Made by a program: the position numbers and the translations under genes | The notes under the pieces: generated by a model | What the model was told of the DNA's origin: nothing | Databases searched by the model: none | What the model saw: only the letters and a program-made list of their open reading frames with translations | Assembly (NCBI RefSeq): GCF_019890615.1 | Contig: NZ_JAINVZ010000019.1 | Span: 1-64,000 of the forward strand | Direction of reading: 5' to 3' | Length of the DNA stretch: 64,000 nt | DNA from: Streptantibioticus parmotrematis | GTDB lineage: Bacteria; Actinomycetota; Actinomycetes; Streptomycetales; Streptomycetaceae | Shown here: positions 6,745 through 12,439 of the stretch, one piece after another | How the letters are laid out: every line of letters begins with the position of its first letter | Numbering within the stretch: the stretch's first letter is position 1

Positions 6745-8250
6745 TCAGTGCTCCTCCAGCCGCAGCGCCAGCGCCGGGCAGCGGCGGATCGCGCGCAGCG
6801 CCTGGGACTTCAGGTGGGACGGCAGCGCCATGTTGGCCAGCGCCGGGTAACCGTCCGGGTCGAGCCTGATCACCTCCGGGAGGATGTCCGCGCACAGGCC
6901 GTGCCCGTCGCAGAGCGTCCAGTCGACCATCAGCTGCTCGGTCGGCTCCTCGTGCGGCAGCGGCAGCACCCCGGTCACCGGGCGCCCGCAGCCGCCGCCC
7001 AGCACGTGCGCCGCCAGGTCGTCGGTGAAGACGGCGAGCGCCGAGCGCACGAAGCGGGAGGTGCCGTCCGGGTGCGAGCAGGCGCCGCGCCTGCGGACGG
7101 TCTGGGTGGCCCGGCGCAGCACCTCCAACGCGGCCTGGCCACCGCCCCCGAGCACCTCCGACAGCGCGGCGGCGACGCCCGGCAGGCCCAGGCGGCACGG
7201 TCCGCACTGCGCGGCCGACTCCGCCGCCAGCCACTGGGCCACCCGCAACGTCTCACCCAGCGGGCACAGTTCGGGGGAGAGCGGCGCCACGCCGCCCGCG
7301 CCGAGCGTCGCGCCGTGCGCGTTCATCCCCGCCCGGGAGACCGCGGCGACCGACGCCGAACTGGGGTCGAGCCAGCCGCCGTGGTAGCCGCCGACCAGCA
7401 CGCCCTGCCCGATCCCCGAGCCGCAGGCGTGCAGCACGTAGCTGAGCGGCACCCCGCTGGGCACCTCCACCAGCATCGGACGCGGCACGGAACCGGTCAC
7501 CGTCAGCAGCACCGTCCCCGGCTCCTCCGGCGTGCCCGCGTGGGCGTAGCGGTCGGCCCCCAGGCGTGCGGCGACGGCGAGTTGGGCGTACGTCTCGGTG
7601 TTGGACAGCAGCGTGGGCAGGCCGTCGACACCGGACTCGCTGGCATGCGTGCGGCGGCCCGCGGGCAGCGGCACCTCGTCGTTGGCGCCGCGGATGATGG
7701 AACTGGCCTCGCCGGAGACGAAGCGCTCCGGCATCCGCAGCACCTGCGCCCGCAGCTTGCGGCCGCGCCGGTCGTCCAGGCCGCGTTCCTCCAACGCGGC
7801 CCGTACGGACGCCTCCAGCGGATCGCGGGTGACCGCGACGATCAGGCGGTCCGCGCCGAGCGCCTCGGCGACGAGCAGCGCGCCGTCCAGCACCAGGTGC
7901 GGCGCCCGGGTCAGCAGCGCGGTGTCCTTGCGGCACGCGGGTTCGCCCTCGCAGCCGTTGATGACGACGGCCGTGCGGCACGAGCGCGCCCGGGCGGCGG
8001 TGGCCACCGCGCGCAGCTTGCGGGCGAACGGGAAGGCGGCGCCGCCGCGGCCGCGCAGGTCGACCGACTCGGCGAGCGCCTCGACCTCGGCCGCCGACAG
8101 CAGCGGCAACGTGCCGTGCACGCAGTGGTGGGTGGCCAGGTCGAGCCGCGACGCGATGTCGAACCCCGCGGTCAGCCGGGGCACCCCGAGGGCGTGGACG
8201 GCGAGCGGGGCGTCGGGCGGAGGGGTGGAGGTCCGTGCGGGCAGGTTCAC
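6745..8250 (-). CDS. NuoF-like flavoprotein fused to a 3Fe-4S ferredoxin domain
   Basis: This 501-aa protein resembles the NADH/FMN-binding subunit F of complex I. It has a GRGGAAFPFARKL flavin/NADH motif near residue 70, an INGCEGEP motif, an SLBB region (LLTVTGSVPRPMLVEVPSGV), and an iron-sulfur region with QCGPCRLG plus a distal GACSH cysteine. In the canonical ESCGxCxPCR motif the first cysteine is replaced (ESAAQCGPCR), leaving three ligands. The last 65 residues are a ferredoxin module with CDGHGLC and a terminal CP, a 3Fe-4S pattern as in P450-partner ferredoxins. The GTG start overlaps the upstream membrane-protein stop by 4 nt, implying a coupled electron-transfer pair. Donor and acceptor are not known. 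Confidence 0.85.
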   Translation of the reverse strand: MNLPARTSTPPPDAPLAVHALGVPRLTAGFDIASRLDLATHHCVHGTLPLLSAAEVEALAESVDLRGRGGAAFPFARKLRAVATAARARSCRTAVVINGCEGEPACRKDTALLTRAPHLVLDGALLVAEALGADRLIVAVTRDPLEASVRAALEERGLDDRRGRKLRAQVLRMPERFVSGEASSIIRGANDEVPLPAGRRTHASESGVDGLPTLLSNTETYAQLAVAARLGADRYAHAGTPEEPGTVLLTVTGSVPRPMLVEVPSGVPLSYVLHACGSGIGQGVLVGGYHGGWLDPSSASVAAVSRAGMNAHGATLGAGGVAPLSPELCPLGETLRVAQWLAAESAAQCGPCRLGLPGVAAALSEVLGGGGQAALEVLRRATQTVRRRGACSHPDGTSRFVRSALAVFTDDLAAHVLGGGCGRPVTGVLPLPHEEPTEQLMVDWTLCDGHGLCADILPEVIRLDPDGYPALANMALPSHLKSQALRAIRRCPALALRLEEH

Positions 8251-9734
8251 CGGTGGCCTTCGCTGTGGGGGAGGGGGTCGCTCGCCGGTGCGGCGGCGGA
8301 GGGGGCGTGCGTGGCGTCGCCCCAGGGCTCGCCGCTGCGGGGACCACCGCCCGTCGGGGCGCCCCAGGGCTCACCCGGCCGGGGCCCGGCGCTCCACGGG
8401 TCGCCGTGGGCGTGGGCCGCGCGCGCGTCGGGGGCCTCCTGCGGTTCCGCGGTGTGGCCGAACGCCTGTGGCTCGTCGAGGCCGTAGGCGTGCCGGGTCC
8501 CGTGCGGGGCCTGGTGGGAGGCGTACGGGTCCGGGACGTACGCGGAGGCGGGGACGTGGGGATCCCCGGCGTACGCGGAGGCGGCGGTGGGCGCCTGGTG
8601 CGGGATGGCGCCGATGCCGGGGGCGGGGACCTCCGTCAGTCCGGTGCCGGGAACGCTCTCCGGGCCGTGCGCGCCGTAGCCGGAGCCCGGAGCGGCCAGA
8701 TCGTCAACGGGCGTGCGGGCACCGGGTATCCCAGCGCTGCCGCCGAGCCCGCTGCCGCCGAGCCCGCTGCCGCCGAGCCCGCTGCCGCCGAGCCCGGCCC
8801 CGCCGGACAGCCCGCCGCCGCTTAGCCCCGCACCGCCGAGCCCTGCACCCGTGATCCCCGCCCCGCCGGACAGCCCCGCACCGCCCCCCGTCCGCCCGCC
8901 GTGCGCGCGCCCCCTGCGCCGCACCCCGCCCGCCGCGCGGCGTGCCCCTGCCCCCGCGCGATGGCGTACCGCCGCGAGCCCCCGTCCCGGTGCGCCGAGC
9001 CGGGACGGGACCGCCGAGCGTCCCGCGTCCGCGGTGCGGCAGACCGCCGGCCGGTCCATCGCCCCGCCGTCGCGCACGTGCATCCGCCAGCGGACCACCA
9101 GCGCCACGCACACGCCGATGACGCACAGGATGTAGGAGACGTTGACCCAACCCGCCGCGGAACGGCCCGCCTTGAGCCCGTGCAGCAGGCCGGTGAACCA
9201 CGCCGGGTAGGCGCACGCGTGCAGCATCCGCCAGCGCCCGGCGTGCCCGCGCCCCGCGAACGCGCCGCGCAGCACACCGGTGGCGACGGAGAGCACCAGC
9301 AGGTAGCCGGCCACCACTCCGAGGCCGATCAGGAACCGTTCGCGCCCGCCGCTGAACGGCACGAGCGCCGCCACCAGGGAGACGTGCGCCTCGCCGACCT
9401 TCACCGACACGTGCAGGATCAGGAAGCCGAACGCGGCCACGGCGGTGGCCCGGTGGAGTGCCTGGGTCGCGATGCGGTGGCGTGGGCCGAGCAGCGAGGT
9501 GCCGGTGCACATCAGCCCGTAGACGACCGTGGAGGTCAGCGAGACGAGGGTGAACACGCCCGCGCCGTAGTCGAGGAAGCGCCGCGGTCCCGGGCCCATC
9601 GTCGGCACGAGGGCGAGCACCACGACGACGGCCGTGGTGACGGTGAGCAGTACACCGGCGCGTGTCCGGGAGGCGGAGGCGGCGGCCGGACCGCTCGCGC
9701 CGGGCGTTCCTGGCGACCCGAGCAGCCGTGCCAT
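8247..9734 (-). CDS. Ferric-reductase-like haem-b membrane protein with low-complexity tail
   Basis: The first 230 of 495 residues contain about six membrane helices of the ferric-reductase/cytochrome b type. Two helices carry spaced histidine pairs (ALH...ILH, 14 apart; MLH...LLH, 13 apart), suited to two transmembrane haems. The remainder is a hydrophilic tail rich in Gly, Ser, Pro and Ala with GGSGLGGSGL repeats and proline-rich segments, likely disordered and cytosolic. No FAD/NAD reductase domain is fused; that role is probably supplied by the overlapping NuoF-like gene. The start is uncertain: ATG 9734 has no clear ribosome site, whereas ATG 9848 has GAGG 6 nt upstream and would add 38 residues including a TTA codon. 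Confidence 0.75.
   Translation of the reverse strand: MARLLGSPGTPGASGPAAASASRTRAGVLLTVTTAVVVVLALVPTMGPGPRRFLDYGAGVFTLVSLTSTVVYGLMCTGTSLLGPRHRIATQALHRATAVAAFGFLILHVSVKVGEAHVSLVAALVPFSGGRERFLIGLGVVAGYLLVLSVATGVLRGAFAGRGHAGRWRMLHACAYPAWFTGLLHGLKAGRSAAGWVNVSYILCVIGVCVALVVRWRMHVRDGGAMDRPAVCRTADAGRSAVPSRLGAPGRGLAAVRHRAGAGARRAAGGVRRRGRAHGGRTGGGAGLSGGAGITGAGLGGAGLSGGGLSGGAGLGGSGLGGSGLGGSGLGGSAGIPGARTPVDDLAAPGSGYGAHGPESVPGTGLTEVPAPGIGAIPHQAPTAASAYAGDPHVPASAYVPDPYASHQAPHGTRHAYGLDEPQAFGHTAEPQEAPDARAAHAHGDPWSAGPRPGEPWGAPTGGGPRSGEPWGDATHAPSAAAPASDPLPHSEGHR
8736..8795. repeat. Four perfect 15-bp tandem repeats inside the membrane-protein gene
   Basis: GCTGCCGCCGAGCCC occurs four times head to tail without error. 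On the coding (minus) strand it specifies a Gly-Leu-Gly-Gly-Ser repeat in the disordered tail. Copy number could vary by slippage without breaking the frame. Confidence 0.9.
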
Positions 9735-10426
9735 CGACGGCGCGTACCGGGCCGACGCTCTTAAGGGTGCGGTGGGGGAGTACCGCGAAGCGGGCGAGGA
9801 CGCCGTGGAATTCGGGGACTTCGGGTACTTCGGGGACTTCATGGGCATGGACGACCTCGCGAACCGCGTGGACTTCGCGAACGAGGAGAACAGCGAGGAG
9901 AACACCGCGAAAGCGGACCGCGGGGTGGATGTGGGGGAGGATGCGGACGAAGCGCGCCGCCGCCTGCCCCCGCCGCCGTGTTGAGGGTTGATGCGCATAG
10001 TGGTTTTCTCCGGCAGCCGTGTGGGGATACGGGGGAGTCGATGGCTGACGCTAAGCCGCTACCGCAGGTATGGCACCAGGCTTGCCGCAACTGCGTTCGT
10101 GTGGGCCGTCACACTGCTAACGTCATGTCAATTGCTGCTCTACGGAGTGGAGTTGACGTCCGTCGAGCCGGGTGATGGAACCTTTCCGCAGCGTCCTACC
10201 AGGGACCGTTGAGTACGGACAGGTCTGTGCCAACTTCTCAGGCATTACCTTCACTTGACCATTTCTTGAACGGATCATGTCCCTGACGTGGACAGATCAG
10301 CGACAGAGTTTCGCTTTGTGCGGAGGTACCTCACCGGTATCCGGTGAACCCGCTCCGCGGTTCGCGACGCATCTCGACCAGGCGACGCGACGCATTTACG
10401 CGACGATCCGTTTCGCTGGGGGTTTC
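9735..10426. other. 692-bp divergent intergenic region, no supported gene
   Basis: This separates the redox operon (minus) from the S53 peptidase (plus) and must hold both promoters. Open frames exist on both strands but none has Streptomyces-like third-position GC. Positions 9815-9840 carry an imperfect GACTTCGGG direct repeat. The stretch 10080-10430 is clearly lower in GC than its flanks. No convincing -35/-10 pair was found. Confidence 0.5.
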
Positions 10427-12439
10427 ATGAAGCTTGTCCGCTCTAGAACTCGCGCCGGACTGGCGGTGGCGGCGACCCTGCCGCTGGTCGCCGGCGCACT
10501 GGCGATGGGCATACCCAACGCCCAGGCCGACACGGCGCACGGGCGCCAGGTGATCGCCAACACCAAGCCGTCCTGGGCCACGTCCAACGCCGACCACGGC
10601 ACCGCCGCCGCCTCCACCAAGGTCGACCTGCGCGTCTACCTGGCCGGTGACGCCAAGGGCCTCGCCGCCTACGCGCAGGCGGTCTCCGACCCCAGCTCGG
10701 CGAGCTACCACAAGTACCTGTCCGCCAAGCAGGCCCAGACCCGCTTCGGCGCCACCAAGCAGCAGATCGCCGAGGTCACCGCCTGGCTGAAGTCGTCGGG
10801 CCTGAAGGTCACCGGCTCCAACCAGCACTACGTGTCGGTCTCCGGCGACCGGGCGTCCGTCGAGAAGGCGTTCAGCGTCCAGCTGCACAACTACTCGGTG
10901 GGCGGCCACGTCTACCACGCGCCGTCCGCCTCGGCCACGGTGCCCGCCTCGCTGGACGGCGCCGTGCTGACCGTCACCGGTCTGAACAACGCCCCGGCCA
11001 AGGCCCAGACCGACGCCACCGTCGGCACCGCCACCAACGGCTCGGCCCCGGGCGCGGCCGCTCCCGGCGACCAGCTGCCGCCGCCCTCCGCGGTGTTCAA
11101 GAACGCCGGTCCGTTCTCCACGTACTACGGCTCGAACACCGACAAGAAGCTGCCGTCCGCGTTCGGCTCCAAGGCGCCCTACGCGATCAAGGGCTACACC
11201 GGCAAGCAGCTGCGTGCCGCCTACGGCGCGGGCAAGTACACCGGCAAGGGCGTGACGGTGGCGATCACCGACGCGTACGCGTCGCCGTACATCGCCCAGG
11301 ACGCCGCCGAGTACGCCAAGCGCAACGGCGACGCCGCGTACAAGCCGGGCCAGCTGACCCAGGTCCTGCCCAGCAGCTACAACAGCACCGCGCCCAACCA
11401 GTGCGGCGCGTCCGGCTGGTACGGCGAGGAGACCCTCGACGTCGAGGCGGTGCACGCGGTGGCCCCGGCCGCCGACATCACCTACGTCGGCGCGGCCTCC
11501 TGCAACGACCCGGACCTGCTCGACGCCCTGTCCAAGGTCGTCGACAACCACCTGGCCGACGTCGTCTCCAACTCCTGGAGCGACGTCGAGTCCAACGCCA
11601 CCCCCGACTCGACGGCCGCGTACGACCAGGTCTTCGAGCAGGGCGCGGTCGAGGGCATCGGCTACTACTTCTCCTCCGGTGACGACGGCGACTACGTCGC
11701 GGCCAGCGGCAAGAAGGACATCGGCTCCCCCTCCGACTCCCCGTGGGCCACCGCGGTCGGCGGCACCTCGCTCGCCGTCGGCAAGGGGAACAAGTACGAG
11801 TGGGAGACCGGCTGGGGCACCGACAAGTCGGTGCTGTCGGCCGACGGCAAGACCTGGACCGGCTTCCCCGGCACCTTCAGCTCCGGCGCGGGCGGCGGCA
11901 CCAGCACCCTCTACAGCCAGCCGTTCTACCAGCGCGGCGTCGTGCCGACCTCGCTCAGCGAGGCCAACGGCACCAAGTCGCCGATGCGCGTCATCCCGGA
12001 CATCTCCGCGGTCGCCGACCCGACCACCGGCTTCCTGGTCGGCCAGTCGCAGAGCTTCCCGGACAAGTCGATCCAGTACAGCGAGTACCGCATCGGCGGC
12101 ACCTCGCTGGCCTGCCCGGTGACCGCCGCCATCCAGGCGCTGGCCCAGCAGGCCCAGGGCGGCGTGCCGATCGGCTTCGCCAACCCGTCGATCTACGAGC
12201 GCTACGGCACCCCCGCGTTCCACGACGTGACCGACCACCCGCTGGGCCAGGGCAAGGGCATCGCCGACGTCCGCGTCGACTTCGCCAACAGCATCGACGC
12301 CAGCGGCGGCCTGATCACCTCGCTGCGTACCCTCGGCACCGACAGCTCGCTGCACGCGACCGTCGGCTACGACAACGTCACCGGCGTCGGCACCCCGGGT
12401 GCGGGCTACCTGAAGTCGTACGTCCCGGGCAAGCACTGA
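10427..12439 (+). CDS. Secreted S53 (sedolisin/kumamolisin) serine-carboxyl peptidase
   Basis: This 670-aa acid-type endopeptidase has a Sec signal (KLVRSRTRAG, hydrophobic core, ending ANAQA-like near residue 35). A pro-kumamolisin activation domain spans about 45-200. The mature catalytic domain has the S53 Glu-xxx-Asp pair at E334/D338 (YGEETLDVEAVHA) and the nucleophile S560 in GGTSLACP. A calcium-site-like segment ends the protein (YDNVTGVGTPGAGYL). The ATG at 10427 is chosen because it opens the signal peptide; the upstream in-frame ATG at 10277 would add 50 residues with no signal character. It is monocistronic with a terminator after it. Confidence 0.94.
   Translation: MKLVRSRTRAGLAVAATLPLVAGALAMGIPNAQADTAHGRQVIANTKPSWATSNADHGTAAASTKVDLRVYLAGDAKGLAAYAQAVSDPSSASYHKYLSAKQAQTRFGATKQQIAEVTAWLKSSGLKVTGSNQHYVSVSGDRASVEKAFSVQLHNYSVGGHVYHAPSASATVPASLDGAVLTVTGLNNAPAKAQTDATVGTATNGSAPGAAAPGDQLPPPSAVFKNAGPFSTYYGSNTDKKLPSAFGSKAPYAIKGYTGKQLRAAYGAGKYTGKGVTVAITDAYASPYIAQDAAEYAKRNGDAAYKPGQLTQVLPSSYNSTAPNQCGASGWYGEETLDVEAVHAVAPAADITYVGAASCNDPDLLDALSKVVDNHLADVVSNSWSDVESNATPDSTAAYDQVFEQGAVEGIGYYFSSGDDGDYVAASGKKDIGSPSDSPWATAVGGTSLAVGKGNKYEWETGWGTDKSVLSADGKTWTGFPGTFSSGAGGGTSTLYSQPFYQRGVVPTSLSEANGTKSPMRVIPDISAVADPTTGFLVGQSQSFPDKSIQYSEYRIGGTSLACPVTAAIQALAQQAQGGVPIGFANPSIYERYGTPAFHDVTDHPLGQGKGIADVRVDFANSIDASGGLITSLRTLGTDSSLHATVGYDNVTGVGTPGAGYLKSYVPGKH

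Follow-up and report, generated by a model that had tools for sequence, protein, structure and literature searches.

What does a NuoF-like protein do when it is fused to a ferredoxin, coupled to a membrane protein and encoded away from complex I? The question is raised by two adjacent genes in a 64,000-nucleotide stretch of the Streptantibioticus parmotrematis genome (contig NZ_JAINVZ010000019.1), referred to here as the window. The upstream gene, M, specifies a predicted haem-binding membrane protein, and the downstream gene, F, a NuoF-like flavoprotein that ends in a single-cluster ferredoxin. An earlier note on this DNA had taken the pair for a route by which reduced nicotinamide adenine dinucleotide (NADH) feeds electrons into the membrane. 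The reading favoured here is that the two proteins together make up an enzyme for electron export across the membrane, which would take electrons from NADH or its phosphate, NADPH, in the cytoplasm and deliver them to an acceptor outside. Judged on sequences and structure models, it is given a probability of about 0.6. Direct support comes from the domain composition, the conservation of ligands, the pairing of the genes, the conserved ferredoxin and the folds of the models.

F is a NuoF-like protein with a built-in ferredoxin

Pfam searches were carried out with F. The Complex1_51K, NADH_4Fe-4S and Fer4_15 domains all scored over their cut-offs (Table 1), in agreement with the fusion of a NuoF-like protein to a ferredoxin described in the earlier note. 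Against the NuoF equivalog TIGR01959, F scored 139 bits, far under the cut-off of 558.65, and a PHROGs search with F gave no match. The nearest solved folds to the AlphaFold2 model of F (predicted local distance difference test score, pLDDT, 91.5; predicted template modelling score, pTM, 0.87) are those of complex I NuoF, with a best Z of 43.8 and a root-mean-square deviation of 2.4 over 391 residues; the fold matches listed span residues 11-428.

Conservation was read from an alignment of 131 loci, 126 of them distinct, which with the window gives 127 rows; loci L122-L128 were left out. The rows comprise 106 of the fused type (score >430), 18 of a separate type and three of a more distant type D. 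The motifs for flavin mononucleotide (FMN), namely GRGGAxFP, NGxE, EP and KD, are nearly invariant. At the N3-type cluster site C349, C352 and C391 are kept in all 127 rows, and the canonical first cysteine is Ala, Ser or Thr in every one of them. H393, present in 106/106 fused, 17/18 separate and 0/3 type D rows, could possibly act as a substitute ligand. This is no more than a possibility, since in E. coli NuoF a His stands at the equivalent place alongside all four N3 cysteines. The role is also doubtful since the paralogue of F on contig C5 of the same genome has Leu at this position, and the type D rows lack both the His and the first Cys. In the ferredoxin domain the ligand pattern is C447-x5-C453 ... 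C491-P, and these three cysteines, found in 106/106 fused rows, suggest a 3Fe-4S cluster.

The nucleotide site of the fused branch is changed. In 106/106 fused rows the position matching Glu183 of E. coli NuoF (the second Glu of GEET) is occupied by Gly, Ala or Ser; 13 of the 18 separate-type rows have Glu there. The KPPFPA loop is also replaced in the fused branch. Because of these replacements the specificity of F for NADH is uncertain. A swap of Glu183 reportedly allows E. coli complex I to use NADPH, a result attributed to Morina in 2011. NADPH as sole donor, deduced from the loss of this Glu, was considered and not concluded, because some HydB-type enzymes in the PDB likewise lack the equivalent residue. 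Of the NADH route proposed earlier, a membrane redox module apart from complex I stands and the specificity for NADH becomes uncertain. Loss of NADH- or FMN-binding residues had been named as grounds against the proposal; the FMN-site residues are retained, and the Glu183-equivalent and the KPPFPA loop are replaced in the fused branch.

M has a membrane core with two invariant histidine pairs

Residue numbers of M (H94, H108, H172, H185 and the core, 47-222) count from the ATG at 9734. The four histidines are invariant in all 117 rows compared (100/100 fused-type and 17/17 separate-type), which bears out the two His pairs noted earlier, haem being a prediction. Their arrangement, H-x13-H and H-x12-H, is the spacing of NOX itself. 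The structure model of M has six long helices (pLDDT 83.0, pTM 0.73). In VIA-align it is closest to SpNOX (Z 13.0), STEAP4 (12.6), STEAP1 (12.5) and cytochrome b561 (12.3), followed by STEAP2, Dcytb, cytochrome b6 (11.7) and NOX5 (11.3), with NOX2 lower. The fold by itself is suggestive, and the invariant histidines weigh more. M is read here as a putative di-haem protein of six helices, with His pairs like those of the NOX/MsrQ/STEAP type.

The sole Pfam match of M is Ferric_reduct (PF01794), under the cut-off of 28 at 12.7 bits for the full length from 9734; the M of a separate-type relative (L165) passes it with 33.4 bits. When 46 members of M were compared with Pfam at E 0.01, PF01794 was matched by 14 and DUF4405 by 4. 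No Pfam match to a reductase domain for flavin adenine dinucleotide (FAD) and NADPH was found on the M chain, which consists of the membrane core and a low-complexity tail.

M and F are paired in nearly all genomes that carry F

Pairing was surveyed in 150 Streptomycetaceae genomes, with F counted at 340 bits or more and M at 90 bits or more. The count excludes split or partial copies of F below 340 bits, such as those in G055, G033 and contig C15 of G026 and a second piece in G091. F was found at 71 loci in 70 genomes. At 69 of the 71, M lies at most 1.9 kb upstream on the same strand, which rules out a chance pairing; the other two are at a contig end (G135) and in a truncated F (G143). Among the partly redundant loci L004-L113, M was detected in 103 of 110. 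Six of the remaining seven have 433 bases or fewer upstream; in the seventh, L096, a partial second F intervenes and M comes further upstream. A stop/start overlap of the same kind as in the window joins M to F at 87/103 fused-type and 14/17 separate-type loci.

M was found at 77 loci, eight of them without a full F. In G135 it is on another contig than F, and in G010 (L128) it borders the end of its contig, which cuts off a weak match to F. Five more lie beside leuS (recognised by eye): F has an internal deletion in L126, is a remnant in L125, is absent from L122 and L124, and in L123 has shrunk to the ferredoxin domain joined onto M. In L127, the eighth, M itself has stops. Constant pairing, which the earlier note had proposed to check, is thus nearly complete from the side of F. 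Occurrence of the genes apart, named there as grounds for rejection, applies to M at 8/77 loci and almost never to F. The natural M-ferredoxin fusion of L123 (5315-6397, minus strand) has no NuoF part; its genome also has a full M-F pair, and some 0.9 kb beyond the fusion there is a gene for a cupredoxin (PF00127). In 394 genomes of the class, F matches of at least 416 bits are confined to three families (f1, f17 and f37), and weaker ones, down to E 1e-60, occur across many families.

Complex I genes and a paralogous pair in the same genome

Profile searches of the whole genome were carried out; the window lies on contig C11 in their numbering. PF01512 matches are F of the window, NuoF on C19 and the paralogous pair on C5. 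NuoE (PF01257) matched on C19 only, and the 49-kDa family (PF00346) on C19, C21 and C56. Neither was matched on C11; other subunits of complex I were not searched, and the window genes were viewed by eye. This agrees with the statement that no complex I genes are nearby. F as the NuoF of a second complex I was rejected, as the NuoE and 49-kDa matches are elsewhere and F is under the NuoF cut-offs.

The C5 pair belongs to a separate-type operon of the kind [stalk]-apbE-M-F-ferredoxin. ApbE was matched on no contigs but C5 and C4, and FMN_bind (PF04205) once, on C4. PF03640 likewise has one match in the genome, which lies on C5 at a distance of about 5 kb from the paralogous pair. In the genome's own separate-type F (L114, 9359-10900) the His that otherwise follows the last N3 Cys is not conserved. 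The L114 ferredoxin frame looks truncated, and this second copy may be decaying.

Gene structure in the window

The features of the pair are collected in Table 1. The overlap of four bases (gtga, 8250-8247) is as described earlier, and the coordinates of F stand; for M, the start at 9734 gives way to the ATG at 9998 as the favoured one. In the closest relative (L004, whose F is 96% identical) the ATG at 9734 is ACG, the one at 9998 is kept, with ggag 9 bases upstream, and the gaps of M between the two are multiples of three. From this comparison the start is more likely at 9998 than at 9734. The differences from L004 between the two ATGs weigh against it: they number 6/9/9 per codon position, with no bias, while those in the membrane part are 7/9/28 at positions 1/2/3. 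The first 88 residues counted from 9998 are either a weakly constrained extension or outside the translated part.

Table 1. Positions of the M and F genes, their domains and putative ligand sites in the window
Feature	Position	Strand	Remarks
F gene	6745..8250	-	501 amino acids, GTG start; NuoF-like flavoprotein fused to single-cluster ferredoxin
Fer4_15 ferredoxin domain of F, C-terminal	6760..6927	-	residues 442-497; 46.1 bits, cut-off 22.4
NADH_4Fe-4S (N3-type cluster) domain of F	7006..7248	-	residues 335-415; 54.1 bits, over cut-off
SLBB-like stretch of F	7420..7503	-	residues 250-277; weak, 23 bits, under cut-off 27
Complex1_51K (FMN-binding) domain of F	7579..8064	-	residues 63-224; Pfam 94.4 bits, over cut-off
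M/F stop/start overlap	8247..8250	-	4 bases, gtga
M gene	8247..9998	-	open frame from ATG 9998, 583 amino acids; from ATG 9734, 495 amino acids
M C-terminal tail	8250..9029	-	Gly/Pro/Ala-rich; weakly constrained, differences from L004 37/41/50 per codon position
M membrane core	9069..9596	-	residues 47-222; putative bis-histidine di-haem bundle
H172-x12-H185, putative haem ligand pair of M	9180..9221	-	invariant in 117/117 rows
H94-x13-H108, putative haem ligand pair of M	9411..9455	-	invariant in 117/117 rows

Most separate-type operons carry ApbE and a free ferredoxin

The separate-type operons are mostly ordered [stalk]-apbE-M-F-ferredoxin. A ferredoxin frame follows at the end of F in 18/18 Streptomycetaceae loci (including L114) and in 18/20 loci of other families. 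In the latter M is directly upstream in 17/20 and ApbE is present in 16/20; ApbE adjoins the separate-type pair at 34 of the 40 loci tested. On plasmids of Rhodococcus qingshengii and Cnuibacter physcomitrellae the annotated order is FAD:protein FMN transferase, ferric reductase-like, NuoF-like and ferredoxin, and a two-component system adjoins the operon on both. In a tree of F, 53 fused rows are joined with a support of 100, and the separate-type rows fall outside them in two groups, one of which is sister to them with 83, a join flagged by the program as a possible long-branch effect. The tree was made by a quick method with one long outgroup, with the ferredoxin columns kept in and with Shimodaira-Hasegawa-like approximate likelihood ratio (SH-aLRT) supports only. 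The simplest reading is that the ferredoxin was fused to F once.

ApbE was found by phmmer in none of 81 fused-branch sources (the window and 80 loci). FMN_bind (PF04205), searched genome-wide, was not found near the window pair, its sole match being on C4. The window as a flavinylation cluster was thus rejected, with no ApbE nearby and the genome's ApbE on C5 and C4.

A small frame lies just upstream of apbE in L116, L120, L136, L144, L150, L158 and others. It has one apparent membrane helix followed by a stalk rich in Pro, Ala, Ser and Thr. In a uniform test its C-terminus was [ST]G[AGS][ST] in 16 of 34 apbE loci (the frame of L137 is doubtful), whereas among the 1669 genes called across all loci 4 end in this way, a rough comparison since the frames were chosen differently. 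L114 and L148 have the same C-terminal motif with a different anchor, and nine further apbE loci have a candidate frame ending in GS. The C-terminus resembles the ApbE target motif [S/T]GA[S/T]. The stalk frame of L120, the one tested, had no Pfam match. The stalk is a possible minimal flavin carrier.

Two further observations concern these relatives. A VIT-family gene (L167, 382-1104) near the Cnuibacter separate-type operon fits the iron link given for MsrQ-like clusters in PMC8238504. The type D loci (L115, L118 and L121) encode more distant NuoF-like proteins in which the first N3 Cys is also gone; they lie near Rieske-oxygenase-like and acyl-CoA-dehydrogenase-like genes (by eye), and no M match was found in the DNA stretch searched.

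Neighbours of the fused pair

Neighbours were counted in the best 80 of 108 fused loci, some of which end at contig ends. Of these 80, 17 are of the leuS/nadD type, like the window. Among the other 63, relatives of DUF1996 occur in 48, of DUF4142 in 49 and of PF03640 in 48. In 13 loci of Nonomuraea, Actinomadura and Streptosporangiaceae the numbers are 13, 13 and 0; PF03640 adjoins the fused pair in Streptomyces. The proteins are apparently secreted, as judged from the Pfam text on PF03640 and the appearance of their N-termini. The association is kept in Actinomadura craniellae (L062) and on a Streptomyces plasmid (L166), where the gene order is changed. At full-flank loci of this group a PucR-like regulator is found in 39/51 and an extracytoplasmic function (ECF)-type sigma factor in 13/51. 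The literature on PF03640 and DUF1996 yielded fungal DUF1996 work and passing mentions. PF03640, DUF1996 and DUF4142 proteins as partners of the window pair were rejected, as none was found in the window and the genome's PF03640 is on C5.

In the window a kumamolisin-type peptidase gene (Pro-kuma_activ; 10277-12439, plus strand) lies between M and leuS, divergent from M. A relative is found in 9/80 of the named loci, all of the leuS type. Judged by eye, it also accompanies M at loci with a decayed or lost F. The leuS/kumamolisin-like neighbourhood looks like positional conservation.

Proposed path of electrons and its alternatives

In the proposed enzyme, F would oxidise NADH or NADPH at its FMN in the cytoplasm, and pass single electrons through the three-cysteine N3-type cluster and the ferredoxin domain to M. 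Two stacked bis-histidine haems b in M would then carry them across the membrane to the acceptor outside, F taking the role that in NOX and STEAP enzymes falls to the FAD/NADPH part. We infer the binding of haem and clusters, the donor, the order of carriers, the direction and the acceptor from the composition and conservation described above. Where related operons include ApbE, a protein with covalently bound flavin is the probable partner outside; elsewhere this is probably the part of the apparently secreted DUF1996, DUF4142 or PF03640 proteins.

Several observations weigh against electron export by M and F. The membrane part of M alone scores 17.1 against the PF01794 cut-off of 28. Cytochrome b6 chains (Z 11.7) and a designed helical protein (Z 10.4) appear in the same list as SpNOX, and a Z of 13 can be reached by helical bundles without kinship; in Foldseek the best match of the M model was NOX5 at E 0.014, with nothing at E <= 0.001. 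M is without a full F at 6/77 loci away from contig ends and may have other partners, and in other-family separate-type loci it is downstream of F in 1/20 and not found in 2/20. The ferredoxin could serve soluble partners and not M. With the adenine side of the nucleotide site altered, oxidation of a nucleotide by F is not certain. No candidate acceptor gene lies beside the window pair, where PF03640, DUF1996 and DUF4142 were not found, and relatives of these families are in 0/17 of the leuS/nadD-type loci in the DNA searched, with no candidate acceptor adjacent there.

M and F might instead form a small menaquinone reductase, a non-pumping side entry to respiration running from F through haem b of M to menaquinone. 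MsrQ, the namesake of the M class, is termed a quinone-binding subunit in PMC8238504, and the proteins closest to M in fold include cytochromes b561 and b6. Such a reductase is nevertheless unlikely: it needs no pair of membrane-spanning haems, and the ApbE of the separate-type relatives, like the apparently secreted proteins beside many fused members, points outward.

Inward flow, from a reductant in the membrane or outside through M to the ferredoxin domain, could feed cytochrome P450s or other cytoplasmic enzymes. Single-cluster ferredoxins of the type found in F serve actinobacterial P450s. The M-ferredoxin fusion of L123 would fit such a flow, as would a P450-like open frame (by eye only) about 1.4 kb after the C5 paralogue. 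The FMN site, superfluous for inward flow, is however kept across the fused rows, and the family is linked to ApbE and apparently secreted proteins, so that this direction is improbable. An NOX-like oxidase, reducing O2 to superoxide at the outer haem, has the model fold and His spacing of M in its favour; we give it equally little weight, as M bears no NOX reductase domain and the related operons point to protein acceptors.

Electron export by M and F can be extended, tentatively, to a whole class of actinobacterial enzymes, as yet undescribed, that would export electrons across the membrane at the expense of NAD(P)H and would be built from a complex I-type dehydrogenase module, a three-cysteine N3 site, a built-in ferredoxin and an NOX-type haem core. 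In sister clades these might serve secreted PF03640, DUF1996 and DUF4142 proteins or the ApbE-flavinylated C-terminal Ser of the stalk; this wider reading is doubtful. If true, it would mean that an NOX-like transmembrane wire draws its power from a reused NADH-oxidising module of complex I. For streptomycetes it would name a cytoplasmic donor, open to testing, for redox chemistry outside the cytoplasm, and PF03640, DUF1996 and DUF4142, families without known function, would be tied to electron transfer.

Comparison with known systems

The earlier note knew of no characterised example of such a pair. In the open-licence literature searched, no experimentally characterised example and no paper on the fused branch was found; the pair does not stand alone, as published relatives exist. 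Among 1797 MsrQ-like flavinylation clusters, 31 have a NuoF-like (PF10589) gene (Meheust et al. 2021, PMC8238504), and NAD(P)H is proposed there as the cytosolic donor for at least a subset of MsrQ-like clusters. Because that set is defined by flavinylation clusters, ApbE-less pairs like that of the window fall outside it. Ferredoxin is mentioned eight times in the main text of that paper, none of them in its MsrQ-like section. What the clusters share with the window is a NuoF-like (PF10589) protein next to a PF01794-type membrane protein of six helices, in the window a putative di-haem one. The window branch differs in having no ApbE or FMN_bind nearby, a ferredoxin fused to F and an M under the PF01794 cut-off. 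MsrQ, the membrane subunit with haem b of the methionine sulfoxide reductase MsrPQ, shares its Pfam class with M and serves the outside (PMC8238504); unlike it, M has a dedicated FMN/iron-sulfur partner. MsrQ-like, PepSY and DUF4405 proteins are reported to share a His-lined haem core, DUF4405 binding haem B (Huang et al. 2024, PMC10979944).

With NOX, SpNOX and STEAP, fold neighbours of M, the pair shares the transmembrane four-His core; it is unlike them in that the reductase part is a separate NuoF-like FMN/iron-sulfur protein with a ferredoxin. With complex I NuoF and the HydB- and NfnB-type subunits, F shares the fold and the FMN motifs; in the structural matches listed, 391-411 residues align with an identity of 20-26%. 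In contrast to these, the pair has no NuoE, the N3 site has three of four cysteines, the Glu183-equivalent and the adenine loop are changed, and F carries a ferredoxin at its C-terminus. What sets the fused branch apart is thus the fused ferredoxin, the lack of ApbE nearby and the altered cluster and nucleotide sites, and it appears to be an undescribed variant of the published flavin-linked relatives.

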